This document shows positions 2 to 21,534 of a DNA stretch of 21,534 bases, piece by piece. Under the pieces are notes generated by a model. The model did no database searches. It was given only the letters and a program-made list of their open reading frames with translations, and had not been told where the DNA came from. This DNA comes from a virus. A program made the translations under genes and the position numbers. The stretch is taken from positions 1 to 21,534 of the IMG/VR virus record IMGVR_UViG_3300030102_003443. The stretch is one strand, 5' to 3'. Numbering within the stretch: the first letter of the stretch is position 1; each line of letters starts with the position of its first letter.

Positions 2-55
2 CTAAAACTGTTTGGTGCCAACGGTATCAAGTTGACTATTGAGGAGGCGGATTAG
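2..55 (+). CDS. Possible 3' end of a convergent gene
   Basis: The plus strand from base 2 reads LKLFGANGIKLTIEEAD and stops at TAG (53-55). The composition looks like a plausible protein C-terminus, and it would overlap the last 20 bases of the minus-strand giant gene. Only 17 codons are visible, so chance is a serious alternative and no family can be assigned. Confidence 0.2.
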   Translation, partial: LKLFGANGIKLTIEEAD

Positions 56-6226: not shown

Positions 6227-7731
6227 GAGAATACTCCCGAGTTCTGAAGTCCGCTATAAGCCAATGCCGCCCCCGTGGCTTGTTGAAACGGAGACGGCCC
6301 AGGGGACATCGTTGTTTGCGCAGTGCCAATCGGAGCACCTTGCAATACATCTGAGAAGAAACCAACTTGTTGATAAGGCAACATCTGATTTGCTCTGGCC
6401 GCATCCATTTCAGCTTGCTGTTGCCGCTGTTGCTGTGCACCAAGTTGTGATAGTAAGTTAACATCTGACTGACCCATCTGCTGTGCCATGCCGCCCATCT
6501 GAGCAGACTGCATACCAAGCGAACCAAGTCCCTGACCCATTCCTGAAATTTGTTGTTGTGCACCCAGTCCAGTAGTGATCCCTTGAAGACCAAGATCCGC
6601 TGCCTGACCCGCGAGTTGACCCGCACCTTGTGCGCCTTGCATTGCCATCCCTGCGCCTTGCATTGCTTGACCCGCACCTTGCATCGCTTGACCAGTTCCA
6701 GACAATCCAATCTCTCCTGCACCCCGTGCAGCTTGTAAACCCAACTGACCAATGTCTGTTCCAAGTCCCCCAGTCTGAGTTCCGAGTTGCCCGAACAACT
6801 GACCAACACCCATTTGACGTTGTTGCTGTTGCTCAAACGCTTGTTGTGCTTGTTGTTGTGCTGTTTGATACGCTTGGCTGCGAAGCTGTGACGCTATACG
6901 TGCTTTCTCTCGTGCGTATCTATCATCGATTTTACCTAACGCAGCATCTACAGTGTCAAACCTTCTGTCTCCACTAAACGCACCTTGTTGCAAAGCTCTT
7001 GCTTCTAAGTTTCTTTCCATGGCTAGAGCTTCATCTTTTCTTGCTCGATCAAGGTCGGCAAGAGTTGCATCAAGAACTTGCTGTGTGAAAGGGTCATAAA
7101 ACCCTTGAGCAGACATCGGATCATATCGTTGTGCTGCACCACCAAGAAACTCACGGCCTTGTCGTATAGATGCTAACCCCTCTTCTTGAAAAGGTCTTGC
7201 CATGGCAGTGACATCACGAAGTTCCCGAGCCGCTCTTTGCGCGACAGATTCACCTCGTAATCCGGCTGCTTCACCTCGTAATCCGGCTGCTTCCCCCCGA
7301 CCACCTGCGGCTTGTACATCTCTAGCAGCTTGTCTAAGTTCACTTTGCCCTCTGTCAGTTTGCCCTGAAATCTGACCCGCTAAAGCTTTGGACGCATTAA
7401 TTGCGTCCTCTACAGTTTGTATGCCTGTGCCAAGGGCTTTATCTCCACGTTCTAAAAATGGCTTGTATGCACCAATGCCCTCTTGAGCCAAAGCAAATGC
7501 TTGTTCTTGCATAGGACTAAACCCTGCAACCTCATACTCTGGCATTTCCCCTGTAAATAGTTCTTGAGATCTTGGCAAAAGACCTTGGATGTAATCTGGG
7601 TTTTCAACCATCTCCCCTGTGTCGGGGTCTTCTATAAATTTATCTCCAAAGCCATAAAGAAATGGTTTCGCTTCTTCGGGTAACTCCCGAATAACTCGTT
7701 GGATTTGCTCTCCGCCGCTACCTCTTCCCAT
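6223..7731 (-). CDS. Internal virion / ejection-type protein, Gln- and Gly-rich
   Basis: The 502-residue protein has AAAGGG upstream of its ATG. The N-terminus holds ELPEEAKPFLYGFGDKFIED and VAGFSPMQEQAFALAQEGIG. A perfect 21-base tandem repeat encodes GEAAGLR twice near residue 150. The central helical region (YDPMSAQGFYDPFTQQVLDA, ARALQQGAFSGDRRF) matches a conserved phage internal-protein pattern. It is followed by a Gln-rich coiled coil (AYQTAQQQAQQAFEQQQQRQ) and Gly/Ala/Met/Gln repeats (GTGQAMQGAGQAMQGAGMAM). The C-terminal motif (MLPYQQVGFFSDVLQGAPIG, PGPSPFQQATGAALAYSG) is also typical of the family. The protein probably lies inside the capsid and is ejected. The stop TGA overlaps the next start (ATGA). 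Confidence 0.75.
   Translation of the reverse strand: MGRGSGGEQIQRVIRELPEEAKPFLYGFGDKFIEDPDTGEMVENPDYIQGLLPRSQELFTGEMPEYEVAGFSPMQEQAFALAQEGIGAYKPFLERGDKALGTGIQTVEDAINASKALAGQISGQTDRGQSELRQAARDVQAAGGRGEAAGLRGEAAGLRGESVAQRAARELRDVTAMARPFQEEGLASIRQGREFLGGAAQRYDPMSAQGFYDPFTQQVLDATLADLDRARKDEALAMERNLEARALQQGAFSGDRRFDTVDAALGKIDDRYAREKARIASQLRSQAYQTAQQQAQQAFEQQQQRQMGVGQLFGQLGTQTGGLGTDIGQLGLQAARGAGEIGLSGTGQAMQGAGQAMQGAGMAMQGAQGAGQLAGQAADLGLQGITTGLGAQQQISGMGQGLGSLGMQSAQMGGMAQQMGQSDVNLLSQLGAQQQRQQQAEMDAARANQMLPYQQVGFFSDVLQGAPIGTAQTTMSPGPSPFQQATGAALAYSGLQNSGVFS
7249..7290 (-). repeat. Perfect 21-base tandem repeat, two copies
   Basis: Bases 7249-7269 and 7270-7290 are identical and encode the seven-residue unit AAGLRGE twice. 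A third, degenerate unit (AAGGRGE) adjoins it. In-frame length suggests slippage-driven change in a flexible helix of the 502-residue protein. Confidence 0.9.
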
Positions 7732-7734
7732 GTG

Positions 7735-8457
7735 TTATGCCCTTTGCATTTTTAAATACATTTCAGCCGCTGCTTTAGCGCGATCACCATTCTTAGCGTT
7801 GCCTATAATCTCAGAAGCACGTTCATAGTCTCCGTTAGGGTCCATTGCTGCAAGATCTTTATGTGATAGTACCACTTCTTGTGTAGAAAGTGCAGCCTCT
7901 TGTACAGGTTTTCCATCTTGATAAATCATTGCAGGGATTGAATCACTTGTCGGAGTCCCCGGACCCTCTATGCGACCCCCCTCAACGGCACCAAAAACCC
8001 TACTTGCCGGAACGTATCTACCACCGGGGCCATAGTATCCTCCACCAAGATATGGTTTACGCTCTGGGTTTTTGGGTTTTGGTGCAAACATACTTAACAA
8101 CATTAGATTACCTGGAGATAGTATTCCATCTTTCCCAGTTAAACCGCCAAGAGCAGACATTACGCCTTTCTCTTTTACTGTTTTTTCTAATGCGGCGGTC
8201 TTTGCAGCATCTGCTGTCGTCCCTGCTCCTGTTCCCCCTAAACCAAGAGCACCACCTACGCCACCTATCGCGGCATTTTTTAAAGCATCACCAAAGTCAT
8301 CTCCTGCTAATAAAGAACCTATCCCTGATGTTACGGCAGAACCAAGCATTGGGTTTCCAACAAGTGCAGATCCAAGTTTTGCGAGGAAAGGTACACTGCT
8401 TCCCGCTAAAGCTGTGCTTAATGTAGGAGCAAGAAAGGGAGCAAGAAACTGAATCAT
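7735..8457 (-). CDS. Internal virion / ejection-type protein, Gly-zipper rich
   Basis: The 240-residue protein starts at an ATG with GGAGG six bases upstream, overlapping the zinc-ribbon stop. Its N-terminal third is small-residue rich and hydrophobic (MIQFLAPFLAPTLSTALAGS, GIGSLLAG, AAIGGVGGALGLGGTGAG), resembling glycine-zipper segments that can insert into membranes. The C-terminal part contains GPGTPTSDSIPAMI and VQEAALSTQEVVLSHKDLAA. The GPGT.TSDSIPA motif recurs in several phage virion proteins. A short helical tail ends in KAAAEMYLKMQRA. Position directly before three larger internal proteins suggests it is packaged in the capsid and ejected, perhaps helping to form a channel; that is inference. 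No enzyme motif is visible. Confidence 0.7.
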   Translation of the reverse strand: MIQFLAPFLAPTLSTALAGSSVPFLAKLGSALVGNPMLGSAVTSGIGSLLAGDDFGDALKNAAIGGVGGALGLGGTGAGTTADAAKTAALEKTVKEKGVMSALGGLTGKDGILSPGNLMLLSMFAPKPKNPERKPYLGGGYYGPGGRYVPASRVFGAVEGGRIEGPGTPTSDSIPAMIYQDGKPVQEAALSTQEVVLSHKDLAAMDPNGDYERASEIIGNAKNGDRAKAAAEMYLKMQRA

Positions 8458-8687
8458 AAGGTGCCTCCGTCCATGGCTTGAGGCATCGTTACTGTAATCG
8501 CAGTGTGTTTTTTAGTATCATCTGTCCAAGACTCACCGCAATCTGGACATTTGCCATCAGGATACGAAGCTATTTCTTCTGGTGTGTCTACTAGGTTATC
8601 GCAGTTGTGACACTGAATAGTATCAACAGATGTAGCAGGTCTCCATCGCCCACCATCTGGCATTGTAATTACTGTTTCGTCAGACAT
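8454..8687 (-). CDS. Small phage zinc-ribbon protein
   Basis: The 77-residue protein contains two Cys pairs, CHNC (Cys26, Cys29) and CPDC (Cys47, Cys50), separated by 17 residues. This is the geometry of a zinc ribbon or rubredoxin-like knuckle. It is preceded by VITMPDGGRWRPATS, and the C-terminal tail (HTAITVTMPQAMDGGTL) repeats the VTMP..DGG theme. AGGTG lies upstream of the ATG. The stop TGA overlaps the next ATG (ATGA, 8454-8457), and the last codons carry that gene's GGAGG ribosome site. Metal binding is likely from the Cys pattern. The role is unknown; the position between nozzle and ejection proteins suggests a virion or assembly protein, not a transcription factor. Confidence 0.8.
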   Translation of the reverse strand: MSDETVITMPDGGRWRPATSVDTIQCHNCDNLVDTPEEIASYPDGKCPDCGESWTDDTKKHTAITVTMPQAMDGGTL

Positions 8688-8694
8688 GTTGCAC

Positions 8695-8991
8695 CTATGT
8701 AGTTGTTACCGTTACTGAACCAACAGCCCCAGTCCCTGCTGATCCACGAGCGTGTGGTATATTTATTTCTGTTATCTTAACATAACCACCATGATTAAAG
8801 ATAGCCCCAGTTTCTAAAGCAAAATTGTCTGTTTGCAAGTTTGTAAATACACCGAATGTATTTCTCCCTTCGCCAGGGTTTTGTACCTGTTGAACATAAA
8901 CTGAAAATGCACGCACAACTTCAGCTATATACTGCTGATTGTACTCTCTTGGAGCATTTGGAAAATATGGTATTGCAAGGTTTCGTGACAT
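8695..8991 (-). CDS. Small conserved phage structural protein (98 residues)
   Basis: I choose the ATG at 8989-8991 (MSRNLAIPYFPNAPREYNQQ). It overlaps the nozzle gene stop as TAATG and has AGAAGG upstream. The longer frame from 9042 would add 17 residues inside the nozzle gene and lacks family resemblance. The protein continues YIAEVVRAFSVYVQQVQNPG, then a beta part (FALETGAIFNHGGYVKITEI) and ends GTGAVGSVTVTTT, another copy of the VGSVTV module. It is familiar as a small protein following nozzle genes in marine phages; a tail-tip or plug role is possible but unproven. Confidence 0.75.
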   Translation of the reverse strand: MSRNLAIPYFPNAPREYNQQYIAEVVRAFSVYVQQVQNPGEGRNTFGVFTNLQTDNFALETGAIFNHGGYVKITEINIPHARGSAGTGAVGSVTVTTT

Positions 8992-10910
8992 TACCTTCTT
9001 CCGTCGCTGCGAATATCTATTCGAGGAGAACCAAGCCTCCAACCTACACCCGTAGTGCTACTATCTACCTTAACCGCTACTGATCTACCTCTCAAGCGTA
9101 CATGTGCATCTTGTGTAAATTGTTCTACGGGAACCGACGCTGTTCTTTCCACAGCTTTAGCATTCGTTTGTAAGTAGTTTCCTCCAGGGAAGTTTCTAGC
9201 TTTCAACGTAAAGTTTGCAGTTGGCGGTAGAGATGTAGATGATCTGAATGTAAGGTCAGGTATTAACCTTCTGACAAAAGAAAAGCTGTCCCCCTCTCCA
9301 AGATCAAACTGACTTGATTCAATAAACGCACTTATAGCTGATGCAGGGGTCGTGCTGCCATCATCAAAACCCACCTCATGGTTATACAAATAGCCATCTC
9401 TACCCGCTGCTATTGGGTTTTCCTCTACGCCTCGATCAATCCACGCAGTTCGCACCATTGTGCCATAATACCAAATACCCTGTAGATAGTTGTATACAAC
9501 GTAACGATCATTGTTGTCAGAGCTAGACGACGGATAAAACCACCAAACCTCAGAAAAAGCTGAGTTTACAGCAGCAAAAGTTTTTTCTGCTTGTGCAGCA
9601 TTGAAGTCAGAAAACACATAATCTTTTACAGAACACGGAAGAGTTTGAACGCCACCGTTGTAAACATAAAACTCGCTTTTACCCATCCAATAAACTGTAT
9701 CTTGTACCGCAGCTACAGTTGAAGGACCGCGTATTGTAATGTTGTCTGATATCATGTTGATACCAAACGTAAACGGAGGCCCAACATACTGTAATGTGTG
9801 TAGCGAAATGTCTGTAAAAACAAGTATCTGTTGTCTTGTCTCTATAGCTGTTACTATTTTAGATCCTGATCCTATACTCAAACTACCTGCACTGTTGTCG
9901 GCTGTTGAGTTCCAATCTGTAATATTTTCTTGATCTGAAAAACGTATTAACAACGGGTCTTGTGTTCCTATGTTTGTTGCCGGATCACAACCAAAAGCTA
10001 TTACATGCCTGTCTACATCTGATACGATTACTTTAGTTGCAATGGTTGGAGCTTGATTGGCACCTGCAAGAGAACTTATTGCAACTGCTCGATTGTTTGA
10101 AAGACCTCCAGATGGTTGCCAGTAATATATGCCCCCGTTCATTACGTTCATAAGTAAATTTTCACCAAAATTATCGTGTGTCCACACACGCAGTGTATCT
10201 GTAATTAGATCAACGGATGCGGCTGAGTTCCAAGTTCCGCGACCCCACGATCCCGCACCCCATCCTGTACCAAGCACACTGGTATCTAATCCTACATTTA
10301 TCTGATAGGTGCCAACAACCGAACTGCCGCCATTCCCACTGTCCGATGAATTTGCTACAACTGGAGTTGGAGAATATTGCCCGTCCACAGTTATACTGCT
10401 AGTTGTTCCTGCGGCTCTTGCTTGAACAGTATAAGTAGATGAATCCGTTACACTAACAATCTGATACTCTTGGTTTAAAACAGCTGCGGTTATGTTCCCA
10501 CCTAAACTAACGGCACCACTAAAAGTTACAAAGTCATTGACCACTGCACCATGGCTTGGATCAGACACTGTAATTGTTGAAGAACCGTTTGATGCAGAAA
10601 AAGTTACATCTCCGGCACTTGTGGTAGATCGTATGGGTGTTATGTCATAGTAACCTTGACCATACTCAGCATAGTATTTGAGGTGAGTGCCTACTCCTAA
10701 GTATCCATCTAGACTAAGTGTTCTCCATGGGTGCAACGCACGACATGTTCCTAAAAAAGAAGTAGAACCAATCTTAGACCAACCACCTATTTTTTCTGGA
10801 AACCCTTGTCTGAACCTGACTTTGTCACAGTCAAACCAACCACCCTCGTTTGAATATGATGTTGTCTCCCTGTTTATCCCTGGTTGAAACTGGAGTTTTT
10901 GTAGTGGCAT
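8991..10910 (-). CDS. Phage tail nozzle / tail tubular protein B-like (P22 gp10 or T7 gp12-type)
   Basis: The 639-residue protein begins MPLQKLQFQPGINRETTSYS, then NEGGWFDCDKVRFRQGFPEK, the signature I associate with podovirus nozzle or stabilisation proteins that extend the short tail below the adaptor ring. Residues 95-170 form an inserted beta domain with the DPSHGAVVNDFVTFSGA pattern, common in phage tail proteins. A Trp-rich motif (GWGAGSWGRGTWN, residues 216-228) precedes LRVWTHDNFGENLLMNVMNG and a propeller-like series: IAFGCDP, LLIRFSDQENITDWN, ILVFTDISLHTLQYVGPPFT, VYWMGKSEFYVYNGGVQTLP, VWWFYPSS, YNYLQGIWYYG. The C-terminus is a beta domain ending RLGSPRIDIRSDGRR. An AGGTGA ribosome site lies upstream, and its stop overlaps the next ATG. 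Assignment rests on remembered family pattern plus context. Confidence 0.85.
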   Translation of the reverse strand: MPLQKLQFQPGINRETTSYSNEGGWFDCDKVRFRQGFPEKIGGWSKIGSTSFLGTCRALHPWRTLSLDGYLGVGTHLKYYAEYGQGYYDITPIRSTTSAGDVTFSASNGSSTITVSDPSHGAVVNDFVTFSGAVSLGGNITAAVLNQEYQIVSVTDSSTYTVQARAAGTTSSITVDGQYSPTPVVANSSDSGNGGSSVVGTYQINVGLDTSVLGTGWGAGSWGRGTWNSAASVDLITDTLRVWTHDNFGENLLMNVMNGGIYYWQPSGGLSNNRAVAISSLAGANQAPTIATKVIVSDVDRHVIAFGCDPATNIGTQDPLLIRFSDQENITDWNSTADNSAGSLSIGSGSKIVTAIETRQQILVFTDISLHTLQYVGPPFTFGINMISDNITIRGPSTVAAVQDTVYWMGKSEFYVYNGGVQTLPCSVKDYVFSDFNAAQAEKTFAAVNSAFSEVWWFYPSSSSDNNDRYVVYNYLQGIWYYGTMVRTAWIDRGVEENPIAAGRDGYLYNHEVGFDDGSTTPASAISAFIESSQFDLGEGDSFSFVRRLIPDLTFRSSTSLPPTANFTLKARNFPGGNYLQTNAKAVERTASVPVEQFTQDAHVRLRGRSVAVKVDSSTTGVGWRLGSPRIDIRSDGRR

Positions 10911-10917
10911 TTGTCAC

Positions 10918-13452
10918 CTACGTTTTTACTACGAGTTCAGTTGCAGAGATAGCAGTCCCTGCTAATACACTTGGGCTATCCGCTGTTGTGCTTATCGTTC
11001 CGTCTGTTTGTACAAAGTATTGTTGCCCTGCGGTAAGACCAATCTGGTTTGTTGACACAGAGCCTATGATGTCCATTGAGGCATTACCGCCATCGGCTAC
11101 TTCGGCTCTGGTGGTTGCTATGGTAGTTGGAGTAAAAACAACAGAAGTACCATAATTTGAGTTTCCTGCATCTTTATAAGAAATCACACTTTTGTTAGCA
11201 TTGCTATCAAAAGCAACAGAAACACCTTCAACACTTGCAGCTTCAAATACTGTCTCAGAATCAAGGGTTATACTTGTGCCACTAACTGTGCCGCTTATCA
11301 CCTGCCCCTTGCTTGTGCCTTTAGAATCATATGCAATAACAACTTTGTTTAAATTACTGTCAAAGGCAATTCCTTGAAATTCTTCTATTTCAGCGTTGTA
11401 TGTAACAGCACTCCCAAAACTTATAACTCCACTGCCATCAATATCACCAACAACAACCTGTCCTTGATCTGTAGAGCTACCATTTATGTATGCAATGACA
11501 ACTTTATTATTACTACTGTCAAAAGTAGGAGCTATATACTTTGTTTGATTATCAGCAAAAATAACATTACTAGCAAAGCTAATGCTTGTCCCTGACACAG
11601 TGCCCACCGCAGCCCTACCTTTTGTGCTTATTCTTGAACACACAACAACTTTGCCTCTATTACTGTCAAAAGTAATTGTATTTTGATCGGCAGATAAAGA
11701 CATAGCAACTACCGCAGTTCCAAAACTTATACTCGTTCCGCTTACAGTTCCTACTCTTGTCTCAGTATAATTGTTTGTTCCTACGTAGACCACCACAACT
11801 TTATTATTTGTGCTGTCAAAAGTAACACCCATGTAAGTGCCTTGACCTGCATCAAAAACAGTAGCACTGCCGAAAGAAATACTAGTTCCCGACACCGTTC
11901 CTACTTTTGCTACGCCTTCACCACCCGTTGAATAAATCACCACAACTTTATTAGAATCACTGTCAAAGGTTATACCTGCTTCATCATTAGTAGTGGCAGA
12001 GTTAAATACTACGGGTGTCCCAAAACTAATTGAACTGCCACTTACAGTGCCTACAACGGCTGTGCCATAGTAAGAGTTACCATTATCTCTGTAACTTATG
12101 ACTATTTTATTATTACTTGAGTCAAATGTAGAAGCAGTTACACCTGTGCTTGCGCTTTCAAAAACTGTTGCTGATCCCACAGAAGCCGCATCTCCTGTCT
12201 GCACAGCTACGCCCCTCGACATACCAATGTAGTTTTCTGAGGTGAGGTTAGTGCCGCCTACACTTATAACAGAGCTATGTACGTTTTCGCTGCTATCACC
12301 ATTAGCACATGATGCAACTACTTGTTCAGTACTGCTATCATATACACCTGATAGGTAAGTAGCATTAAAATCAAAAATAACAAAAGCAGTTCCAAAACTT
12401 ATAGACGTCCCACTTACAGTGCCTACTATGGCTGTACCTTTGTTGCTGTTACCTTCATCTCTAAAAAGAACAAGTGTTTTATTTGCGCTTGGATCATAAA
12501 TAGCTCTTAAATATGTAGCCGCTGCTGACTCAAATACAACTGCTGATCCGAAAGATATTGATGTACCTGAAACCGTACCAACTATTGCGTTTCCATAAGT
12601 GGTAGAGCTTGGACTTTGCCAAACAATCACGTGCTTGTTGGCACTTGTGTCATAAGTTATATCTGGGTAGCTAGAGTTTGTTGTGGCAAAAACAGCCTCT
12701 GAACCAAAACTAATACCTGTCCCACTAACTGTTCCAACAATAGCTGTGCCGTAAAATGAATTTCCATTATCTTTATAAACCGCAACTACTTTTCCTGCGC
12801 TACTATCAAAAGACGAATGAATAAAAGTTGTGTTAGCTGAGTTAAATACAACCTCTGAGCCAAAACTTATAGATGTGCCTGAGACTGTACCCACTACGGC
12901 TGTCCCATAATTAGAATTTCCTGAGTCTCTATAAAAAACAACTACTTTATTATTAGTGCTGTCAAAAGTTGCAGAAGTATAGACTGTAGCTGCATTGTTA
13001 AAAATAGCTTCCGATCCAAATGATATTGATGTGCCACTTACCGTACCTACATAAGCAACCCCTTTTGACCCACCATGGTCAAACGTAATAACAATTTTAT
13101 TATTGCTGCTGTCAAAACAAATAGAAGAGTCACTATTAGTTTCAGAGACAATAGCTACAGGTGTTCCAAAACTTACAGATGTTCCACTTACTGTACCTAC
13201 CGCTGCGGTAGGGTAATTATTAGCACCCCTAAAAACTATAACAACTCTATTATTACTACTGTCATATGCACTTTGAATATCGTGACTATAAGTAGTTACA
13301 GAAGCTGAAGATGATCCTGCGCTATCGGTTGTTTCTACAACAGAGCTAACAGTCCCATCAGCATTAACCACCACTGGTCTACCACAAGGCAATGTACCAC
13401 TGGCTACCGCTTTAAACTCACCACCTTCTTCAGCCCCTATACGTTTTAACAT
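10918..13452 (-). CDS. Fourteen-repeat double beta-propeller protein C, putative receptor-binding/appendage protein
   Basis: This 844-residue paralogue of the two upstream genes starts at ATG with AAAGG upstream. Its head (MLKRIGAEEGGEFKAVASGT, VNADGTVSSV) matches that of protein A. Seven blades span residues 63-400, the seventh lacking the VGTVSGTSISFG half. A shortened copy of the C-terminal module follows (NLTSENYIGMSRGVAVQTGD). It runs directly into a velcro-like strand (AASVGSATVFESA) and seven more blades, about residues 443-773. Blade 14 is again incomplete, and the full C-terminal module ends the protein (GLTAGQQYFVQTDGTIS, AGTAISATELVVKT). This reads as two single-propeller genes fused in frame, with the internal end and start modules trimmed. 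It probably forms the largest host-contacting appendage of the cassette. No catalytic motif is seen. Confidence 0.8.
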   Translation of the reverse strand: MLKRIGAEEGGEFKAVASGTLPCGRPVVVNADGTVSSVVETTDSAGSSSASVTTYSHDIQSAYDSSNNRVVIVFRGANNYPTAAVGTVSGTSVSFGTPVAIVSETNSDSSICFDSSNNKIVITFDHGGSKGVAYVGTVSGTSISFGSEAIFNNAATVYTSATFDSTNNKVVVFYRDSGNSNYGTAVVGTVSGTSISFGSEVVFNSANTTFIHSSFDSSAGKVVAVYKDNGNSFYGTAIVGTVSGTGISFGSEAVFATTNSSYPDITYDTSANKHVIVWQSPSSTTYGNAIVGTVSGTSISFGSAVVFESAAATYLRAIYDPSANKTLVLFRDEGNSNKGTAIVGTVSGTSISFGTAFVIFDFNATYLSGVYDSSTEQVVASCANGDSSENVHSSVISVGGTNLTSENYIGMSRGVAVQTGDAASVGSATVFESASTGVTASTFDSSNNKIVISYRDNGNSYYGTAVVGTVSGSSISFGTPVVFNSATTNDEAGITFDSDSNKVVVIYSTGGEGVAKVGTVSGTSISFGSATVFDAGQGTYMGVTFDSTNNKVVVVYVGTNNYTETRVGTVSGTSISFGTAVVAMSLSADQNTITFDSNRGKVVVCSRISTKGRAAVGTVSGTSISFASNVIFADNQTKYIAPTFDSSNNKVVIAYINGSSTDQGQVVVGDIDGSGVISFGSAVTYNAEIEEFQGIAFDSNLNKVVIAYDSKGTSKGQVISGTVSGTSITLDSETVFEAASVEGVSVAFDSNANKSVISYKDAGNSNYGTSVVFTPTTIATTRAEVADGGNASMDIIGSVSTNQIGLTAGQQYFVQTDGTISTTADSPSVLAGTAISATELVVKT
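11134..13266 (-). repeat. Fourteen propeller-blade repeats (7 + 7, protein C)
   Basis: Blades 1-7 run from 13266 to about 12253 and blades 8-14 from about 12126 to 11134. The stretch between, about 12127-12252, encodes a trimmed LTSENYIG module plus a new closing strand. Blade lengths are 49-53 residues. Confidence 0.8.
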
Positions 13453-13454
13453 AG

Positions 13455-14834
13455 TTACCCTTTCACGATAAGTTTAGTTGCCGATACAGCCGTCCCTGCA
13501 AAGACGCTAGGATCATCAGCCGTTGTACCTAGTGTGCCATCATTCTGAACGTAGTAGCTTTGCCCTGCCGTTAATCCTGACAGGTTGTCGGCTATTGCAC
13601 CTTGCGTATCTATGATAGCCCCTTTTGTGTCTGCTGCACCGCTGCGAGCTATGCCTATGTAGTTCTCTGAGGTGAGGTTGGGATAGTTGCCACTAGGAGT
13701 TACAACAACAGCGGTTCCATAATCGCTATTATCATTATCATCATAGGCAATTACAACTTTTTTTGCGGTAGTATGGTAGGCCATAGTTACTTCACGCACT
13801 GCGTTAGTGCCACTAAAAGTTGTTGGGCTGCTAAAAGAAATATCTGTGCCGCTTACTGTTCCCTCAACAAACTGACCATACGAACCTGTAGCGCTATCTC
13901 TATAAGCTATAATTGTCTTTTCAGTTGTTGGATCGTACACATGATCTGGGGCAATAGTAGCCGCAGCATGATATGTAACCTCTGTGCCAAAACTTATAGA
14001 TGTACCACTAATTGTTCCAACACGAGCAATACCATGAGCAAAACCACCATCATCTTGAAAACTAACAACTACTTTTCCAGATTGAACATCATAGTTCAAA
14101 CCTATTCCATCTACGGCATCATTAAATACAGCAGCAGATCCAAAAGATATAGAGGTTCCTGATACAGTTCCCACAATCGCAGTACCTGCACTACTGTTAC
14201 CGTAGTCTCTATATGCAATAACAACTTTTCCGTTTACAGAGTCAAATGCATTAACCATTTTGCGTGAGTTTGCTGATTCAAAAACAGTTGGACTTCCAAA
14301 GCTTATACTTGTTCCACTAACTGTACCCACAATAGCTGTGCCGTAATTTGAATTACCACCATCTCTGTAAGAAATAACAACTTTATTATTTGTAGAGTCA
14401 AAACATATTCCAGGTATGTCTCCTACAGAAGCACTTTCAAAAGTTACTGCGCTTCCAAAACTAATAGAAGTGCCGCTTACAGTTCCTACTATCGCTTTTC
14501 CATATGAGCCGTCGTCTTGATCTGTATACGCAATAACAACTTTATTGTTACTGCTGTCAAAGGTAGCTCTAATATAAGGAGTAGTTCCAGACTCAAACTC
14601 AACAGCAGTTCCAAAGCTTATTGATGAACCGCTTACAGTGCCAACTATCGCTTTTCCTTTACTGCTATCTCCTGCATCTCTGTAAGCAATTACTACCTTG
14701 TCATTTGAGCTATCATAAGCGATGGTTTGAGAGTTAGCAACGTTTGCGGCTTCAAAAACTACAGGAGTACCTGCGGAAGCAGAGGTAGCGACATTTGCCA
14801 CAGCGGCAACAGTCCCGTCAGCATTTACAAGCAC
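13455..14834 (-). CDS. Seven-repeat beta-propeller protein B, putative receptor-binding/appendage protein with displaced start
   Basis: The only usable independent start is GTG at 14832-14834, giving 459 residues (MLVNADGTVAAVANVATSAS onward), with no convincing ribosome site. The conserved motif found in both paralogues (VASGA(L/I)T.GK.V) is encoded immediately upstream in the same frame to about 14867, with no ATG, GTG or TTG before a stop. So the native N-terminus is either supplied by frameshift from the 89-residue gene or has been lost. A velcro-like strand (GTPVVFEAAN) is followed by exactly seven blade repeats from about 14717 to 13701. The last lacks the VGTVSGTSISFG half, then comes the shared C-terminal module (LTSENYIG, GLTAGQSYYVQNDGTLG, AGTAVSATKLIVKG). 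Role as in protein A. The next gene starts two bases after the stop. Confidence 0.75.
   Translation of the reverse strand: MLVNADGTVAAVANVATSASAGTPVVFEAANVANSQTIAYDSSNDKVVIAYRDAGDSSKGKAIVGTVSGSSISFGTAVEFESGTTPYIRATFDSSNNKVVIAYTDQDDGSYGKAIVGTVSGTSISFGSAVTFESASVGDIPGICFDSTNNKVVISYRDGGNSNYGTAIVGTVSGTSISFGSPTVFESANSRKMVNAFDSVNGKVVIAYRDYGNSSAGTAIVGTVSGTSISFGSAAVFNDAVDGIGLNYDVQSGKVVVSFQDDGGFAHGIARVGTISGTSISFGTEVTYHAAATIAPDHVYDPTTEKTIIAYRDSATGSYGQFVEGTVSGTDISFSSPTTFSGTNAVREVTMAYHTTAKKVVIAYDDNDNSDYGTAVVVTPSGNYPNLTSENYIGIARSGAADTKGAIIDTQGAIADNLSGLTAGQSYYVQNDGTLGTTADDPSVFAGTAVSATKLIVKG
13701..14717 (-). repeat. Seven propeller-blade repeats (protein B)
   Basis: Seven units of about 50 residues run from YDSSNDKVVIAYRDAG to the incomplete seventh blade YHTTAKKVVIAYDDNDNSDY. 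Units 1-6 contain GTVSGTSISFG or a close variant; unit 6 is the most diverged (GTVSGTDISFSSP). Confidence 0.8.
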
Positions 14835-14848
14835 AGCTTTGCCATTTG

Positions 14849-15118
14849 TTATAGCACCACTGGCGACTTTTTGTGTCTGTCTACATAATCAGGATTAGCT
14901 GACCACGTTGTGCCATCTAACTTATACTTGTTGCCTACCCAATCTTCTGGTGCGTTGGTCACGTTCTCTATAATTGTGGTGTTGCCACTGTTGAGATCAG
15001 CGATAATAAACTGAGCAGGATCTCCCACTGTAATGTCATTTTCTGTCGCTGTGATTGTTACGTCATCAGCAAGGAGATATTTGCTTAACTTAGTTGATGT
15101 TTCTACGATAGTTTTCAT
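14849..15118 (-). CDS. Small phage protein, possibly fused by frameshift to the next gene
   Basis: The 89-residue protein begins MKTIVETSTKLSKYLLADDV at an ATG preceded by GAAAGG. The remainder (VGDPAQFIIADLNSGNTTII, APEDWVGNKYKLDGTTWSAN, PDYV) matches a small stand-alone protein I recall from marine phage tail regions, normally ending soon after the NPDYV segment. Here the frame runs on for DRHKKSPVVL before a TAA. Those last codons overlap, in the -1 frame, a conserved N-terminal motif (KVASGAITNGKAV) of the following propeller gene. The C-terminus therefore looks derived from a deletion junction. Function is unknown; position suggests an appendage component. Confidence 0.65.
   Translation of the reverse strand: MKTIVETSTKLSKYLLADDVTITATENDITVGDPAQFIIADLNSGNTTIIENVTNAPEDWVGNKYKLDGTTWSANPDYVDRHKKSPVVL
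14867..14873 (-). other. Candidate -1 slippery site C AAA AAG
   Basis: Read on the minus strand in the frame of the 89-residue gene, codons 83-84 are AAA AAG preceded by C. A slip of one base back would continue as VASGAITNGKAV into the propeller frame, giving a product of about 554 residues. AAA AAG codons are known slip-prone sites in bacteria; the ideal heptamer would be A AAA AAG. I found no convincing stimulatory hairpin by eye. A loss of one A from a six-A run, real or a sequencing error, would look the same. Confidence 0.4.
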
Positions 15119-15121
15119 TGT

Positions 15122-16555
15122 CTAACCTTTCACTATGAGTTCTGTTGCTGAGATAGCGGTCCCTGCTGTTACTGAGGGGTCTGCTGCTGTTAATCCTATT
15201 GTGCCATCTGTTTGCACAAAATATGTTTGCCCTGCGGTTAGACCGCTTTGGTTTCTGTCGATTGTGTTTGTTGTGTTTATTGCTGCACTCTGTGTGTCTG
15301 CATATGCACCGTCTGAAAAGCCTATGAAGTTTTCTGAGGTAAGATTGTTACTTAAAGGGGTTACGACTGTTGAAGTTCCCTTGTTGGAGTTTCCACCGTC
15401 TGCAAAAGATATAACAGGTTTGTTGTTAGAACTGTCGTAGGAAATCTGTGTGAACGAAGTCAAAGCATCTTCAAAAACAATCGCAGAATCAAAACTTATA
15501 GAAGTCCCACTTACAGTTCCGCTTATAACTTTTCCAACATTTGATTCAAGTTTATAAGCAATCACTACTTTTTGAAGATTAGTATCATAACAAATGGCAG
15601 TTTCATTTACATTTTCAGCAGCAAAGACAACTTCCGTGCCAAAACTTATGGAAGTCCCGCTAATAGTCCCCACAATAGCAGTTCCGTAATCTGAATTACC
15701 AAAATCTTCAAAAGAAATAACAATCTTGTTGTTAGTGGAGTCAAAGGCAGTGTCTACTGCTGATGTACCTGCGTTCGCATAAACTACTACGCTTCCAAAA
15801 GATATTGATGTACCTGACACTGTTCCAACATAACATTTACCTTTATTAGAATCACCACCATCTCTAAATGCAATTAAGTTTTTTCCAGTATTACTATCGT
15901 GTACAACTCTATTAAATTGTGCAGAACTACTGTGATAAACTACTGGAGTACCAAAGCTAATACTTGTACCGCTTACTGTTCCAACAATTGCAGTGCCATA
16001 GTTACTGTTCCCCCCATCTCTATATACTATAACAACCTTGTTATTTGTAGTGTCAAAACCAATTCCTGTATTAGTCGTGGTAGCACTTTCAAATGTTACT
16101 TCAGAACCAAAAGATATTGATGTCCCAGAAACAGTTCCAACAACGGCTTTGCCGTAGTTATTGTCATTTGAGTCCCGAAATATAATAACCACTTTATTAT
16201 TTGAGCTATCAAAAGTACAAGCTATATTAGAAGCAGGGTTTGCTTTAAAAACAGCAGGCGTTCCAAAACTAATGGACGTGCCAGAAACAGTTCCAACAAC
16301 AGCAGTGCCTTGAGTAGAGTTGTCATAATCTTGATATGCACAAACTATTTTATTATTTGAACTGTCAAATGTTGAGTCTAATTCTTGCGTTAAGCCTTCT
16401 TCAAAAACAGAAAATGAACCAACACTTGCGGCTGTTTGAGTAACTTCACTAACAGTTCCATCTGTATTTATACAGACAGGTTTACCATCAGTCAAAGCAC
16501 CAGAAGCGACTGCTCTGACCTGACCATCCTTCGCAATATTACCAAAAGATTTCAT
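15122..16555 (-). CDS. Seven-repeat beta-propeller protein A, putative receptor-binding/appendage protein
   Basis: I place the start at the ATG at 16553-16555; a TTG directly upstream would add one residue and is less likely. The N-terminus (SFGNIAKDGQVRAVASGALT, NTDGTVSEV) is shared with the 844-residue paralogue. Exactly seven repeats of about 50 residues follow, from about 16369 to 15362. Each opens with FDSSNNKVVI.YRDGGNSNYG and continues VGTVSGTSISFG(S/T)..VF. The seventh repeat lacks the VGTVSGTSISFG half. A matching strand (VGSFSVFEE) lies just before repeat 1, which is the expected 'velcro' closure of a propeller ring. The C-terminal module (LTSENFIG, GLTAGQTYFVQTDGTIG, AGTAISATELIVKG) is shared by the three paralogues. 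No active-site residues are apparent. Host surface binding is inferred from position and fold. Confidence 0.8.
   Translation of the reverse strand: MKSFGNIAKDGQVRAVASGALTDGKPVCINTDGTVSEVTQTAASVGSFSVFEEGLTQELDSTFDSSNNKIVCAYQDYDNSTQGTAVVGTVSGTSISFGTPAVFKANPASNIACTFDSSNNKVVIIFRDSNDNNYGKAVVGTVSGTSISFGSEVTFESATTTNTGIGFDTTNNKVVIVYRDGGNSNYGTAIVGTVSGTSISFGTPVVYHSSSAQFNRVVHDSNTGKNLIAFRDGGDSNKGKCYVGTVSGTSISFGSVVVYANAGTSAVDTAFDSTNNKIVISFEDFGNSDYGTAIVGTISGTSISFGTEVVFAAENVNETAICYDTNLQKVVIAYKLESNVGKVISGTVSGTSISFDSAIVFEDALTSFTQISYDSSNNKPVISFADGGNSNKGTSTVVTPLSNNLTSENFIGFSDGAYADTQSAAINTTNTIDRNQSGLTAGQTYFVQTDGTIGLTAADPSVTAGTAISATELIVKG
15362..16369 (-). repeat. Seven propeller-blade repeats (protein A)
   Basis: Seven coding repeats of 50-52 residues each begin with (F/Y/H)D(S/T)..(N/G)K and contain GTVSGTSISF or GTISGTSISF in repeats 1-6. 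The seventh is the incomplete blade closed by the N-terminal strand. DNA of the conserved core varies mostly at third positions, so the similarity is kept at protein level. Confidence 0.8.
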
Positions 16556-16569
16556 CAAACTACTTTCTA

Positions 16570-16932
16570 TTAAGCGTCATCAATCTCTTCATAAGAACAA
16601 ACAGCAGATAAATCCCCTGCTGCACTTGCTTGTATTTTGAGTATATCACTTTCAACCAGGTACAACCCCATGTTCTTATCGATTGGAACAAGTGTACTGT
16701 CAGCCGCCACTGAAATTGTTTTAGCTATGTAATAATCTACACCAGAACGTGTAATCCAAACAGATATGTCTGCCGAATTGGTGCCATCAATATTAGCTAT
16801 AATTAAAGAATTTATTTTTAATAATTTGTTTGACGCACATGTTAATAAACTAACTGCGCTTGCAGCCACGTCTGCATCCACGGCGGTGTTGCCATAAATG
16901 CTCGAGACTGATACAACATTTGGATTTGCCAT
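16570..16932 (-). CDS. Small phage structural protein (120 residues)
   Basis: The protein begins MANPNVVSVSSIYGNTAVDA, with an AAAGGAG ribosome site upstream of the ATG. It is predicted beta-rich: NKLLKINSLIIANIDGTNSA, ISVWITRSGVDYYIAKTISV, STLVPIDKNMGLYLVESDIL and KIQASAAGDLSAVCSYEEID. This pattern is familiar as a small conserved protein next to tail-appendage genes in marine phages, possibly a jelly-roll-like appendage or decoration component. It sits between the fibre-like gene and the propeller cassette, so association with host-contacting structures is plausible. No enzymatic motif is visible. Confidence 0.75.
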   Translation of the reverse strand: MANPNVVSVSSIYGNTAVDADVAASAVSLLTCASNKLLKINSLIIANIDGTNSADISVWITRSGVDYYIAKTISVAADSTLVPIDKNMGLYLVESDILKIQASAAGDLSAVCSYEEIDDA

Positions 16933-16947
16933 TTAAAAACTCCTTTA

Positions 16948-17622
16948 CTATCCAAACACCATTGCCATGGCAATTGCCTTACCAGTTGATATACCCGCAG
17001 AGCCAAAAGATATAGCTCCACTTCCGTTAGTCACCAACGCTTGCCCGTTAGAGCCGTCTGATGTAGGGTAAGTAACTCCACCAATTGTGACTGTGCCCGT
17101 AAAAGTAGGGCTTGCAAGAGGAGCCGCAGCTAAGTTCCCTCTAGCTGTTGCTGCATTTGCTACATCGGATAAGTTATTAGACGCTTCCAAAAATGTTGTA
17201 AGGTCAAAAGTAGCAGATAAATTGACCACCGCTGCACCAGAACCTGCACCATCACAATATATAATAGCACTTTCGCCATTAGGTATCGTGACATTTGCGC
17301 CAGAACCTTGTGAAAACACTGCACTTTGTCCTGATCCATTTTTTACAAAAAACAATTTTGTTTGATCGTTTGGCGATACGGTAATTGTATTTGTTCCCGA
17401 GGGGGAACCCGCCAATAAAAGAACTCTATACTGACCATCAGAAAGAGATCCATCTGTGGTAGTAAGAGTATGAGTTGTTCCCGAAAGAGTTATGGTGCCA
17501 ACACCATTTGTCAAACGGTCAATAATTTGTAAGTTTGTGTTTGTGGTATTGCCCCATGTGCCAGACTGTTCGCCATTGGCAATCAGTTCAATACCTGTAT
17601 TTGTTGTATATGTACTAGCCAT
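16948..17622 (-). CDS. Phage tail appendage / tail fibre-like protein
   Basis: This 224-residue protein begins MASTYTTNTGIELIANGEQS and continues GTWGNTTNTNLQIIDRL, a recurrent N-terminal module of phage tail appendage proteins (the GxxSGTWG..TN motif). Beta-rich segments follow (TITVSPNDQTKLFFVKNGSG, ANVTIPNGESAIIYCDG). At residues 143-175 comes the tail-fibre linker FLEASNNLSDVANAATARGN then APLASPTFTGTVTI, a pattern well known from tail fibres. The protein ends ISTGKAIAMAMVFG, a C-terminus repeatedly seen in marine phage appendage proteins. A GGAGA ribosome site lies upstream of the ATG. It probably trimerises and may anchor or carry the receptor-binding proteins encoded just downstream; that part is inference. 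Confidence 0.8.
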   Translation of the reverse strand: MASTYTTNTGIELIANGEQSGTWGNTTNTNLQIIDRLTNGVGTITLSGTTHTLTTTDGSLSDGQYRVLLLAGSPSGTNTITVSPNDQTKLFFVKNGSGQSAVFSQGSGANVTIPNGESAIIYCDGAGSGAAVVNLSATFDLTTFLEASNNLSDVANAATARGNLAAAPLASPTFTGTVTIGGVTYPTSDGSNGQALVTNGSGAISFGSAGISTGKAIAMAMVFG

Positions 17623-17638
17623 GAAACACTATTCTCCG

Positions 17639-18838
17639 TTAAGGTCTAATTTCAGTATACTCTGTTGTTCTGTTTGGCGCAATATTTGTCCATGTTGTTG
17701 TTGGACTGGGAACTATTCTACCCCAAACTGTTACTCCTCTCGGTCCAATTAGTCCAGATGCGGATAGTCCCGTTACAGGAACATCAATACCCGTACCTGT
17801 CAACACACTAACAGAACCAACGCCCGTTGTCACCTCTAAGCCTGTAACAGGCACTCTTTTTACTAGGGAGACACTAACAGAACCAACGCTTGCTGTCATC
17901 CCTATATCTGTAGCTACAGGCTGACTCCAAGCTCCGTCACCCCAAGTTGCTCGACCCCAACCAGATGCGTCAGCCGCAGTTAAGAAAACAGTAACATTTT
18001 GTGGCAGACCATTTACAATACCTGTGGCTTGTAAACCTGTAACTGGAACACTCGCTAATCCCGTAGCAGTGACTCCATTCAAAGCACTTGTTGCCGCAAG
18101 TCCTGTGACGGCTGCATCCACTCCACCAGTTGCAGTAACAGAATTGACGGAAGAAGAACTACTTAAACCTGTGACATTTATGCCAACACCCGCACCCTCA
18201 ACAACAGTAACAGATCCTACACCGCTAGTTGCAGCGAGACCTGTGACAGGGATGTTTGGCGCATCACCTGATACAGTTGCAGATCCTACAGCACTTGTAC
18301 CTTGAACTCCTGTGGCAAGCGCAATCATTGCTCCATTAACTGAAACAACACCTACACCGCCAGTTGCAGAAACCCCAACAGGTTGCGTCGGTAGTCCACC
18401 AACCTCGCCTGTGGCGGCAAGACCTGTAGGTGAAATACTAGCCGTACCAGTAGCCGTTACAGAGCCAACTGCGGAAGTTGAAGATAAACCAAGAACAGCA
18501 GCCTCTCCAGGGATAGATGCAACAACAGAACCAATGGCTGTTGTGCCTGCAACACCAGTGGGAGAAACAACTGCGCCAGTAAAAGTACTTACATCGCCAA
18601 CGTTACCTGTAGCAGCAATACCTGTCGGTGGAACAGTAGCTGCTCCCTCAACAGAGACATTGCTAACCCCAGTAACCGCACCAAGACCAGTGACAGCAAT
18701 ATTCGGGGCATTGCCAACAACTGTGACAGTGCCTACTTGACCAGATGCAGAAGGAAGAGTAGTGGCAGGGTTACCCCAAGTGCCACTACTCCAACTATCT
18801 CGGCCCCAACCCGTGAATATTACATTGGCGTCCGCCAT
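17639..18838 (-). CDS. Repetitive phage virion protein with TG..VGSVTV repeats
   Basis: The 399-residue protein starts at ATG with AGGAG nine bases upstream. It opens with a Trp-rich motif (residues 10-22, GWGRDSWSSGTWG). About 13 repeats of roughly 22 residues follow, from residue 49 to about 372, with consensus (V/P)TG(L/V)xATxxVGSVTVxG. The run is interrupted near residues 280-305 by a second copy of the Trp motif (GWGRATWGDGAW). The C-terminus is a separate tail (VWGRIVPSP, TTTWTNIAPNRTTEYTEIRP). Composition is very rich in Thr, Val, Gly, Ala and Ser with no Cys, suggesting an extended beta-rich fibre or surface protein. Location between structural and tail-appendage genes supports a virion role, possibly adhesion. 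Function beyond that is not recognised. Confidence 0.75.
   Translation of the reverse strand: MADANVIFTGWGRDSWSSGTWGNPATTLPSASGQVGTVTVVGNAPNIAVTGLGAVTGVSNVSVEGAATVPPTGIAATGNVGDVSTFTGAVVSPTGVAGTTAIGSVVASIPGEAAVLGLSSTSAVGSVTATGTASISPTGLAATGEVGGLPTQPVGVSATGGVGVVSVNGAMIALATGVQGTSAVGSATVSGDAPNIPVTGLAATSGVGSVTVVEGAGVGINVTGLSSSSSVNSVTATGGVDAAVTGLAATSALNGVTATGLASVPVTGLQATGIVNGLPQNVTVFLTAADASGWGRATWGDGAWSQPVATDIGMTASVGSVSVSLVKRVPVTGLEVTTGVGSVSVLTGTGIDVPVTGLSASGLIGPRGVTVWGRIVPSPTTTWTNIAPNRTTEYTEIRP
17723..18694 (-). repeat. About 13 short TG..VGSVTV coding repeats
   Basis: Within the 399-residue protein, units of roughly 22 codons repeat with a TGL/TGV opening and a VGSVTV-like strand near the middle. 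Units have diverged in sequence and a few are shortened, for example those ending GGLPTQP and NGLPQNVTVF, so this is an old array and not a recent exact expansion. Confidence 0.7.
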
Positions 18839-19300: not shown

Positions 19301-19597
19301 TTAAAGTCTCCTTATGAGTTCAGCCAGTTGGGGATGCCCCGCATCAATTAGTGCATTACACACTGTTGTACGGTCACTTCGAATAGCCTGTCGCATATAA
19401 TACGCAACAAGCGTTTCAACGTGCTTAGAGAAAGCACGAGCCTGATCTCTAATAGCAGGGGGAGCCTGATCAGAAACCGACACTATTTTCTGAACACATT
19501 GCTCAGAAAGTTCTTCTGGAGATAATCCACGTTTTTCCGTTGTGTTCACTAACACAACTTGTTCGTCACGCGGCACATTTAAATCAATTTTAAACAT
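19301..19597 (-). CDS. Small conserved phage protein of unknown function
   Basis: This 98-residue protein is predicted mostly helical, with no signal peptide or membrane segment. It begins MFKIDLNVPRDEQVV and carries a charged stretch (TTEKRGLSPEELSEQCVQ), then helices (RDQARAFSKHVETLVAYYMR and CNALIDAGHPQLAELIRRL). I do not recognise a characterised family. It resembles small hypothetical proteins found between adaptor and tail genes in marine phages. The start ATG overlaps the stop of the adaptor gene. The stop is one base before the next ATG, and its last codons contain that gene's AAGGAG ribosome site. A minor neck component, chaperone or assembly factor are all possible; nothing here decides between them. 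Confidence 0.75.
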   Translation of the reverse strand: MFKIDLNVPRDEQVVLVNTTEKRGLSPEELSEQCVQKIVSVSDQAPPAIRDQARAFSKHVETLVAYYMRQAIRSDRTTVCNALIDAGHPQLAELIRRL

Positions 19598-20253
19598 TAT
19601 CTTTTTGCCCTTATAACCTTACCAGTTCGATATTCATCAGTGGTTTCTTTTGCCTCACCCAAAAGTTTTAAACCGGCTAATGATTCTTGAAATCTTTTAT
19701 CATATGAATTTAACATATCTGGATCGCCTTTCATATACAGATATGCTTCAACTAAAGAACCGTATAACATTGATAGTTCCGCATTTTCACTTAGCCACGT
19801 TGTGCTGTTATCATTTAATGTAGAGTCCGTAATACTCAAAGGTCTATAGAAGTAGTGTAACTCAGCGGTGTATTCAGCGTCTGGAGTCGGACCCAATATA
19901 AAATAATCTATATCAAATTGTGCATAGTATTTTGGAAGACCCGTTGTTGTAGCATCTGGAGTATACGTTTGAATAAAACTTGGATCTTTAAATTCTACAA
20001 AAACTTTATCGCCATTTGATCCGGCTAGACTTAAAGAGAACGGAGCAAGAAAATCAGAAGGAACGGCTAAATATTGAAACCCTGTATCAGTCGTTGCAGT
20101 AACGTTTTTACGAAACAAACTTAGCTGAACACTTTTTAAAATACGTTCTTCTGCTGTGCGAATAAACACTGGAAGATTTGTAACGAAAGATGTTTCGTCA
20201 TTTTCCGTGTAATCTTGCAAAGCTTGTTTTAATTGTCCGTATGTAAAGCTCAT
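19597..20253 (-). CDS. SU10-type phage head-tail adaptor protein
   Basis: This 218-residue protein begins MSFTYGQLKQALQDYTENDE followed by FIRTAEERILKSVQL. That is the N-terminal helical signature I associate with SU10-type adaptor proteins, which sit under the portal and connect it to the tail. The middle contains a beta-rich stretch (FQYLAVPSDFLAP, GLPKYYAQFDIDYFILGPTP, ELHYFYRPL). The C-terminal half is helical (LYGSLVEAYLYMKGDP, YDKRFQESLAGLKLLGEAKE) and ends in a basic tail. Length and architecture fit the family. The stop overlaps the next start (TAATG). No strong Shine-Dalgarno is visible upstream, and translation may depend on coupling to the gene ending at 20258. The family call is from memory of sequence patterns, but the context agrees. 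Confidence 0.8.
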   Translation of the reverse strand: MSFTYGQLKQALQDYTENDETSFVTNLPVFIRTAEERILKSVQLSLFRKNVTATTDTGFQYLAVPSDFLAPFSLSLAGSNGDKVFVEFKDPSFIQTYTPDATTTGLPKYYAQFDIDYFILGPTPDAEYTAELHYFYRPLSITDSTLNDNSTTWLSENAELSMLYGSLVEAYLYMKGDPDMLNSYDKRFQESLAGLKLLGEAKETTDEYRTGKVIRAKR

Positions 20254-20257
20254 ATTG

Positions 20258-21067
20258 TTATGCAGGCGTATTAGCCTGACCTCCCATGTTGCTATGGTTT
20301 GTACAATAGTAATACAGGGTTGGTGCAGAATTTGCGACAGTTATTTGCGTAAACGCTCCGGCATTGCCCGGAGTGCCTTCAGTTACAACTCCCGTTGTAT
20401 ACTCAGATCCACCTGCATGTGTTCCATTAGATGTAGTTGAAAACCTTAACGGATGACCAGAGTTGGTATTGTCAGATTGATCAAACCTATATGTTCTACC
20501 CTCTGTCAAACTAACTGTTGCTTGCAGAACGCCGTCTATGTAGTACCTGTTTCCAGAACCTGGGTTAGCTACGGTTACAGCAAATGTTTCTGAAAGAACG
20601 TATATAATACTTCCAACTGTTCCTGTTCCGGCAACACCAGTTAAACTAACACTTACATCATTAACAGGCGTTGTTACTGTCACTGAACCAACCGCCGCTG
20701 TCCCAACAACACCAGTCACAATGGCGCTTTCATTACCTGTATCAGACAAGTTAATTGTTACCGAGCCAACACCTCCTTCAGCAACTAAATTATTACGAGG
20801 AGTTATACCTGGAATATCTCTAAAGCCCACAGGATTGTAACCAGTTTGAATCGCCCTTTCAGAATCTAAGTTCTGCTCTGGTCTAGGGTTTCTTAAAGCT
20901 TGAGGGTCTGGAAAAGCTTTTGGAGGAAATAACTGTGGGTGCTTGGGTTCAAACTCATCTGGACCAACTAAAGAACCAGTCCATTCAAGACGCATTTCCC
21001 GTAATCGGTAACGCCGTCCTGATCGATCTGATATACCATATGCATTTTTTCCAGAGGCGTATGACAT
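20258..21067 (-). CDS. Phage virion protein with C-terminal cupredoxin-like domain
   Basis: This 269-residue protein starts at an ATG overlapping the previous stop. Residues 1-90 form a conserved-looking head (SGKNAYGISDRSG, LEWTGSLVG, EPKHPQLFPP, DPQALRNPRP) that I recall from marine phage structural proteins. Residues 95-155 hold GGVGSVTI, AAVGSVTV and GTVGSIIYV segments, the same short module seen in the 399-residue protein downstream. Residues 160-269 look like a small beta-sandwich: FAVTV, YYIDG, YRFDQSDNTNSGHPLRF, then LYYYCTNHSNMGG. His205, Cys255, His258 and Met261 are spaced like the type 1 copper ligands of cupredoxins, with the short Cys-x2-His-x2-Met loop found in amicyanin. No signal peptide is visible and the gene sits between adaptor genes, so a virion location is more likely than electron transport. 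Copper binding is inference; the domain could be a metal-free adhesion fold. Confidence 0.75.
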   Translation of the reverse strand: MSYASGKNAYGISDRSGRRYRLREMRLEWTGSLVGPDEFEPKHPQLFPPKAFPDPQALRNPRPEQNLDSERAIQTGYNPVGFRDIPGITPRNNLVAEGGVGSVTINLSDTGNESAIVTGVVGTAAVGSVTVTTPVNDVSVSLTGVAGTGTVGSIIYVLSETFAVTVANPGSGNRYYIDGVLQATVSLTEGRTYRFDQSDNTNSGHPLRFSTTSNGTHAGGSEYTTGVVTEGTPGNAGAFTQITVANSAPTLYYYCTNHSNMGGQANTPA

Positions 21068-21534
21068 TAAACCCTCAAGTATTGAATACTAGGTTGTAGT
21101 TTTAAAGGGGTGCGCCCTTCATCTTCATCTGCTGCTCGTTGAAACTCTTCCTCATAAACTACTTTTAAAAGCTGCGCACGTTCAGGAGCGCGTTTCATTG
21201 AGATGTAGTAAGCTAACCCCGCCACCATACAAGGATAAAAACGAAAAGGCATGTCAGTAGTATTAACAAGAGCGTCAGCATCTTCTATCCTTCGTACATA
21301 ATAATATATCAACTGATCAGTGGAGTTTTCTGGAACAGACCAAAGGTTTATTACAGGGTCTATTTGCCTGTCAAAATAGTACTGACTGGGACGACCTTGT
21401 GTGGTTTTATTTGGTATTGTCAGATACTCACCACGACTTATCCTTTGTATTGTAAAGTCAGTGTTATCTCTACGAAGAACAACTTCCAAAACATCAACGA
21501 CATCTGAAGTCAAAGTTTGTTGGGCTTGCCCTGA
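21067..21534 (-). CDS. Phage head-tail adaptor-like protein, 5' end missing
   Basis: The reading frame is open to the window edge: 155 codons are visible and the true start lies beyond base 21534. An in-frame TTG at 21511-21513 could be read as a start, but the frame continues upstream without a stop, so I treat the gene as truncated. The visible part has an aromatic strand (IYYYVRR), then a helical region (AGLAYYISMKRAPERAQLLK) and an acidic helix ending near DEDEGR. The order T.QGRP..YYF, P..NLW.VP, YYYVRR, helix parallels the 218-residue gene at 19597-20253, which suggests two related adaptors. The role, joining the portal to the tail, is inferred from that resemblance and from its position just before the other neck genes. 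Its stop overlaps the next start (TAATG), implying translational coupling. Confidence 0.7.
   Translation of the reverse strand, partial: SGQAQQTLTSDVVDVLEVVLRRDNTDFTIQRISRGEYLTIPNKTTQGRPSQYYFDRQIDPVINLWSVPENSTDQLIYYYVRRIEDADALVNTTDMPFRFYPCMVAGLAYYISMKRAPERAQLLKVVYEEEFQRAADEDEGRTPLKLQPSIQYLRV

Follow-up and report, generated by a model that had tools for sequence, protein, structure and literature searches.

The window analyzed here, a 21,534-nucleotide stretch from a 22,032-base contig of a marine microbial virus, encodes a two-part protein of 269 amino acids whose C-terminal domain is a well-supported predicted cupredoxin fold. The reading that we regard as probable is that of a virion-displayed cupredoxin that binds copper through four residues, His205, Cys255, His258, and Met261; no metal measurement is available. 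Copper binding by the domain as such is likely and remains undemonstrated, the ligand distances being unmeasured. Interchangeable cassettes of this kind make up a large family, carried on neck or adaptor proteins, gp9 connectors, and tail fibers of marine phages. A sequence-only reading of the window had called a copper-site fold on a phage particle unusual, an expectation that was overturned by the wide distribution of the domain in marine phages.

Known cupredoxins are exported electron carriers or domains of oxidases. If true, a family of cupredoxins that forms part of virus particles and extends to a T4-like cyanophage baseplate protein would represent a new setting for the fold. The literature searched, which excluded subscription papers and preprints, yielded no paper that connects cupredoxins or plastocyanin-like domains to virions or phage tails, and the virion-borne family is apparently undescribed there. 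Were the copper-center reading true, phage particles would form an unrecognized pool of protein-bound copper in sea water, and copper in virions would link the structure of phages with the trace-metal chemistry of the sea, for which tail-fiber iron has so far been proposed. Whether purified virions of Syn9, S-ShM2, and P-SSM2 contain copper is a simple question that can be answered with existing isolates. The broader proposal, that the most abundant phage groups of the ocean carry functional blue-copper centers on necks, baseplates, and fibers, several per particle, for host contact or surface redox chemistry, is at present doubtful.

Organization of the two-part protein and its neighbors

The open reading frame of the two-part protein (20258-21067, minus strand) starts with ATG and lies, as previously inferred from the sequence, between two adaptor genes. 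Both flanking genes matched the head-tail adaptor family SU10_adaptor (PF24175), the downstream gene (19597-20253, minus strand) with an E value of 7.8e-25 and the upstream gene (21067-21534, minus strand), which runs off the window, with an E value of 1e-9. Of the testable related contigs, 58 of 66 had an adaptor-like gene upstream of the same two-part protein, and 42 of 69 had one downstream. The N-terminal module (residues 1-66; 20870-21067, minus strand), which had been described as a phage structural head, matched phrog_28581 (E = 5e-14), a family of unknown function. The description was thus upheld only in part, as association with the virion is backed solely by the position between adaptor genes, and there is no direct proof that the window protein is virion associated. 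The absence of a signal peptide was borne out, since the N terminus, MSYASGKNAYGISDRSGRR, has no visible leader, hydrophobic signal-like stretch, or other visible export signal.

Between the head module and the C-terminal domain lies a linker (residues 67-160; 20588-20869, minus strand) with VGSVTV-type repeats, which is the fastest-evolving part of the protein and was modeled with low confidence. In a full-length prediction, the C-terminal domain was modeled well and the head moderately well, and residues 46-156 had pLDDT values below 50. Judging from this model, the linker is probably flexible, or ordered only within an oligomer.

Predicted fold of the C-terminal domain

The domain comprises the approximately 109 C-terminal residues (161-269; 20261-20587, minus strand). 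AlphaFold2, supplied with an alignment of the window domain and 95 diverse relatives, returned an eight-stranded cupredoxin beta-sandwich with a pLDDT of 94.3 and a pTM of 0.88. The predicted topology met what defines the cupredoxin superfamily, namely, a Greek-key beta-sandwich of about eight strands in cupredoxin order, and the candidate ligands fell where they would be expected: strand 4 is immediately preceded by His205 and strand 7 ends in Cys255, with His258 and Met261 in the loop between strands 7 and 8.

Fold comparisons agreed with this assignment. Foldseek against the PDB placed rusticyanin first, with a weak E value of 0.013 and a probability of 0.99. The top VIA-align matches were laccase, copper nitrite reductase, rusticyanin, auracyanin, and plastocyanin, with Z scores of 5.7 to 8.0 over 89 to 105 of 111 residues, and hardly any non-cupredoxin fold appeared among the 50 matches listed. 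The tool itself cautions that Z scores no higher than 8 are middling, but the agreement among the matches is better than that. In BFVD, a set of predicted viral structures, the best fold matches were cyanophage virion proteins. Giant-virus "beta-sandwich proteins" of Pithovirus LCPAC302 and Marseillevirus LCMAC202 were also fold-like in BFVD, with E values of about 2e-5 to 3e-4. The cupredoxin-like domain proposed from the sequence is therefore backed by structure prediction and fold comparison, together with a PDB profile search and the co-retention of the ligands.

Relation to blue copper proteins

Searching the PDB with the window domain as a single sequence gave no useful match, and only a profile was effective. 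With the profile of 96 relatives, the 60 PDB matches listed were blue copper proteins nearly throughout, with ligands in register, the best being copper nitrite reductase (E = 1.7e-6, entry 6hbe, with 9cck also matched); pseudoazurin (1e-4) and plastocyanin (1.6e-3) were among the others. Direct alignment with cyanophage plastocyanin by hhalign gave an E value of 1.2e-4 with His, Cys, His, and Met all aligned and two extra residues before the Met in plastocyanin, whereas column-shuffled controls (n = 20) never fell below 0.076. When the four ligand columns were masked, the plastocyanin match was lost in hhalign (E = 0.12). It is therefore mainly in the ligands that the sequence similarity resides, and independent support comes from the fold prediction.

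Compared with plastocyanin, amicyanin, and pseudoazurin (PF00127), the window domain has the same predicted eight-strand fold, with His...Cys-x2-His...Met in register. The claim of a full type 1 set with amicyanin-like Cys-x2-His-x2-Met spacing accordingly stood, as the ligands align with those of plastocyanin, pseudoazurin, and copper nitrite reductase. In contrast to the members of that family, the window domain had no Pfam match, and thus none to PF00127 (Copper-bind); it lacks the export by signal peptide that is typical of the family, having no visible leader, and it is fused to a virion protein. Weak PF00127 matches were obtained for 20 of the 96 relatives (best E = 5e-4), and two virion copies, from P-SSM2 and P-HM1, scored below the PF00127 cutoff. 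The stretch YICSIHPYM of copper nitrite reductase carries C-x2-H-x2-M like the window domain, but neither a sign of the second or trinuclear copper site of nitrite reductases and multicopper oxidases nor their multidomain enzyme arrangement was seen in the window protein.

Type 1 sites known to date hold the Cys sulfur through the backbone NH of the residue after the first His, usually Asn or Ser. The residue at this position is Asn in the aligned plastocyanin and pseudoazurin, Ser in rusticyanin, and Gly in copper nitrite reductase, but Pro206 in the window domain. The domain thus has the order His, Cys, His, Met and the Cys-x2-His of the last loop that mark a type 1 site, and it fails the requirement for this backbone contact. 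Altered redox properties should follow from the proline, if the site is of type 1 at all, and we do not claim that it is a standard type 1 site.

Two phage systems offer further comparison. Plastocyanin of cyanophages (petE, an auxiliary metabolic gene) shares the blue-copper fold and ligands with the window domain, and some phage genomes hold both; however, it stands alone as a protein, carries an export leader (MKFFIALFASLFLALPAWA), has Cys-x2-His-x4-Met spacing and His-Asn, and forms no part of the particle. The Ig-like accessory domains of tailed phages resemble the present family in being modular, optional beta-sandwich cassettes on unrelated virion proteins. Their fold differs from that of cupredoxins, and we know of no conserved metal ligand set in them.

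Retention and joint loss of the ligand residues

The four predicted copper ligands were confirmed at the residues named by the sequence-only reading. His205 (20453-20455, minus strand), which is followed by Pro206, was invariant in the 96-sequence alignment, and Cys255 (20303-20305), His258 (20294-20296), and the predicted axial ligand Met261 (20285-20287, all minus strand) were each kept in at least 90% of it. A wider survey covered 435 copies of the domain from 334 loci. The full ligand set was present in 162 of the 174 clusters formed at 90% identity and in 41 of the 52 formed at 70% identity, with free variation in the residues between the ligands (for example, CTNHSGM, CKVHRYM, and CGVHPGM). 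The residue after the first His was Pro in 37 of the 41 ligand-bearing clusters. Some of the patterns used to fetch copies spanned the Cys-His-Met motif, which biases the survey toward ligand-bearing copies; among copies found through the N-terminal head, independently of the domain, 19 of 19 kept the four ligands.

Where ligands were lost, they were lost together. Across the 52 clusters at 70% identity, Cys was never kept without both His residues, and 9 of the 10 clusters without Cys also lacked at least one His (Fisher P = 2.7e-9, not corrected for relatedness). When 136 column pairs of similar conservation were ranked by joint loss, the six pairs made up of ligands took ranks 1, 2, 3, 5, 6, and 10, a result equaled by only 10 of 20,000 random four-column sets. 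Homologues that freely lose Cys255 or His258 would have refuted a copper site, and none of this kind of loss was seen, since loss was joint with other ligands. As far as sequences alone can indicate, this is how a functional metal site would be expected to look if a minority of its descendants had become metal free. Another conserved histidine, His217 (GTHxGG), was rejected as a fifth ligand because it did not track with the ligand set.

Occurrence on virion proteins of marine phages

Matches to the domain were found in 360 of 50,697 GenBank phage records, nearly all of them cyanophages by name; the remainder were Pelagibacter phages, Methylophilales phages, and a few uncultured marine viruses. 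Relatives of the domain are common among phages that infect the bacteria most abundant in the ocean. A plasmid collection contained no domain match. Each of six T4-like cyanophage genomes examined held four to five copies (E of 0.001 or better). In T4-like cyanophages, including S-ShM2, S-RIM2, P-SSM4, ACG-2014d, Syn9, P-SSM7, S-P4, and others, a copy with all four ligands forms the C terminus of gp9, the connector between baseplate wedge and fiber, and 320 phage records held a gp9 relative or the gp9 C-terminal domain. The annotated gp9 and fiber proteins are inferred to be structural by homology.

Direct evidence from particles comes from a member without ligands. ORF080 of P-SS2 (63255-63593) encodes such a domain and was represented by on average nine peptides in mass spectrometry of purified virions (PMC2784084). 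The persistence of ligand-less copies, even in a virion, indicates that the fold is useful without metal. Virion proteomics of S-CREM2 could not be tied to a domain-bearing gene and hence was not counted.

The domain also behaves as a cassette. A search with the head module yielded 80 close relatives, of which 19 carried the cupredoxin domain in frame, and most of those without it stopped early or had other short tails. In other contigs, the domain was located at the N terminus of proteins of 400 to 500 residues or occurred in tandem. The varied tails and the N-terminal or tandem placement elsewhere point to a movable, optional cassette. The tails of these 80 head modules were of at least four alternative kinds, a short stop, FDSTSxTLDSTxxTFDEG, GGGDFASAGPVTVEA, and the cupredoxin domain, and they appear as if C termini had been swapped between phages. 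The notion that the domain is more conserved than its carrier was abandoned: a median identity of 0.77 for the domain versus 0.48 for the head was obtained only in loci found through the domain, and the order was reversed in loci found through the head (0.75 versus 0.84), so that the earlier contrast reflects ascertainment bias.

Cellular relatives

Genome contigs were scanned with a closer alignment, and the cellular copies recovered always kept the four ligands. In Marine Group II (Poseidoniales) archaea, the domain ends collagen-repeat proteins with lipoprotein-like leaders, and in SAR86 and the K189A clade it occurs in short lipoprotein-like proteins. In Photobacterium, one copy lies inside surface-type proteins of more than 2,700 amino acids that also contain GEVED and L-type lectin domains. 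The gene neighbors of two cellular copies look cellular, and the remaining genome-contig matches were mostly phage-like genes in metagenome bins. By their predicted features, the lipoprotein-like and giant adhesin-like carriers are expected to be surface exposed. Together with the virion carriers, they suggest that the domain appears on the outer surfaces of cells and virus particles alike.

Possible roles of the domain

In the sequence of events that we propose for a virion-displayed copper-binding cupredoxin, the protein would be made without export and assembled copper-free in the host cytoplasm. Since free copper is nearly absent from that compartment, filling of the site would have to await lysis, with copper then taken up from the lysate or from seawater. 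Once bound, copper would bring about closure of the Cys-His-Met loop. The conserved face around the metal site could then help the particle to make contact with its host's surface, as an accessory rather than essential module. The role in host contact, taken alone, has no direct data behind it and is put forward only tentatively. It is favored over electron transfer, luring, and a structural lock on the basis of the optional occurrence of the domain, its varied placement, and its adhesin-like cellular carriers.

The domain might instead be a plain beta-sandwich module for adhesion or spacing, Ig-like in style, with a copper site that is ancestral and is kept for stability or unused. Copies without ligands in fiber proteins and in P-SS2 ORF080 fit this idea, as does the optional presence of the cassette on close head-module relatives. 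We nonetheless hold it to be unlikely, given that the four ligands are kept in most clusters and lost as a set, whereas an unused site would decay residue by residue. A structural lock formed by another metal, such as zinc, or by Cu(I) only could account for two further features, the replacement of Asn by Pro after the first His, which departs from the aligned type 1 sites, and the folding of virion proteins in a cytoplasm almost devoid of free copper. The His/Cys/His/Met set and its spacing are, however, those of type 1 copper, zinc sites seldom use Met, and this option appears decidedly unlikely.

Two other proposals retain copper and assign it a different use. A redox or electron-transfer center, cycling between Cu(I) and Cu(II) with components of the host envelope or removing reactive oxygen at the surface, would suit the full type 1 ligand set with its amicyanin-type loop, and known proteins of the same fold and ligands are mostly electron carriers and oxidases. 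It is quite unlikely here, as there is no recognizable partner enzyme among the window genes, the domain is tethered to many different structural proteins and so has no common redox partner, and some of the same cyanophages already encode an ordinary exported plastocyanin. Alternatively, copper or another soft metal on the virion could be recognized by a host outer-membrane receptor for metal uptake. The domain-bearing phages infect ocean bacteria living at trace metal levels, and there is a parallel in the iron-binding HxH motifs of tail fibers, which have been proposed to act as a Trojan or Ferrojan Horse (PMC11705849). We give such a metal lure or scavenger little weight: a receptor for the domain is not indicated by anything found here, copper buried in a type 1 site is hard to pass on, and cells bear the same domain on their own surface-type proteins.

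Additional features of the window

The other large genes of the window (36-18838, minus strand), with products of, for example, 712, 844, 459, and 478 amino acids, mostly lack a convincing PHROG or Pfam match. To judge from its residues only, the head module of the two-part protein resembles a zinc ribbon from which the cysteines have disappeared. Five relatives keep CxxCG...CxxC at the matching position of the head. In the window copy (20870-21067, minus strand), all of these cysteines are replaced (SDRSG, VGPDEFE), and a lost metal site in the head thus adjoins a kept one in the C-terminal domain of the same protein.
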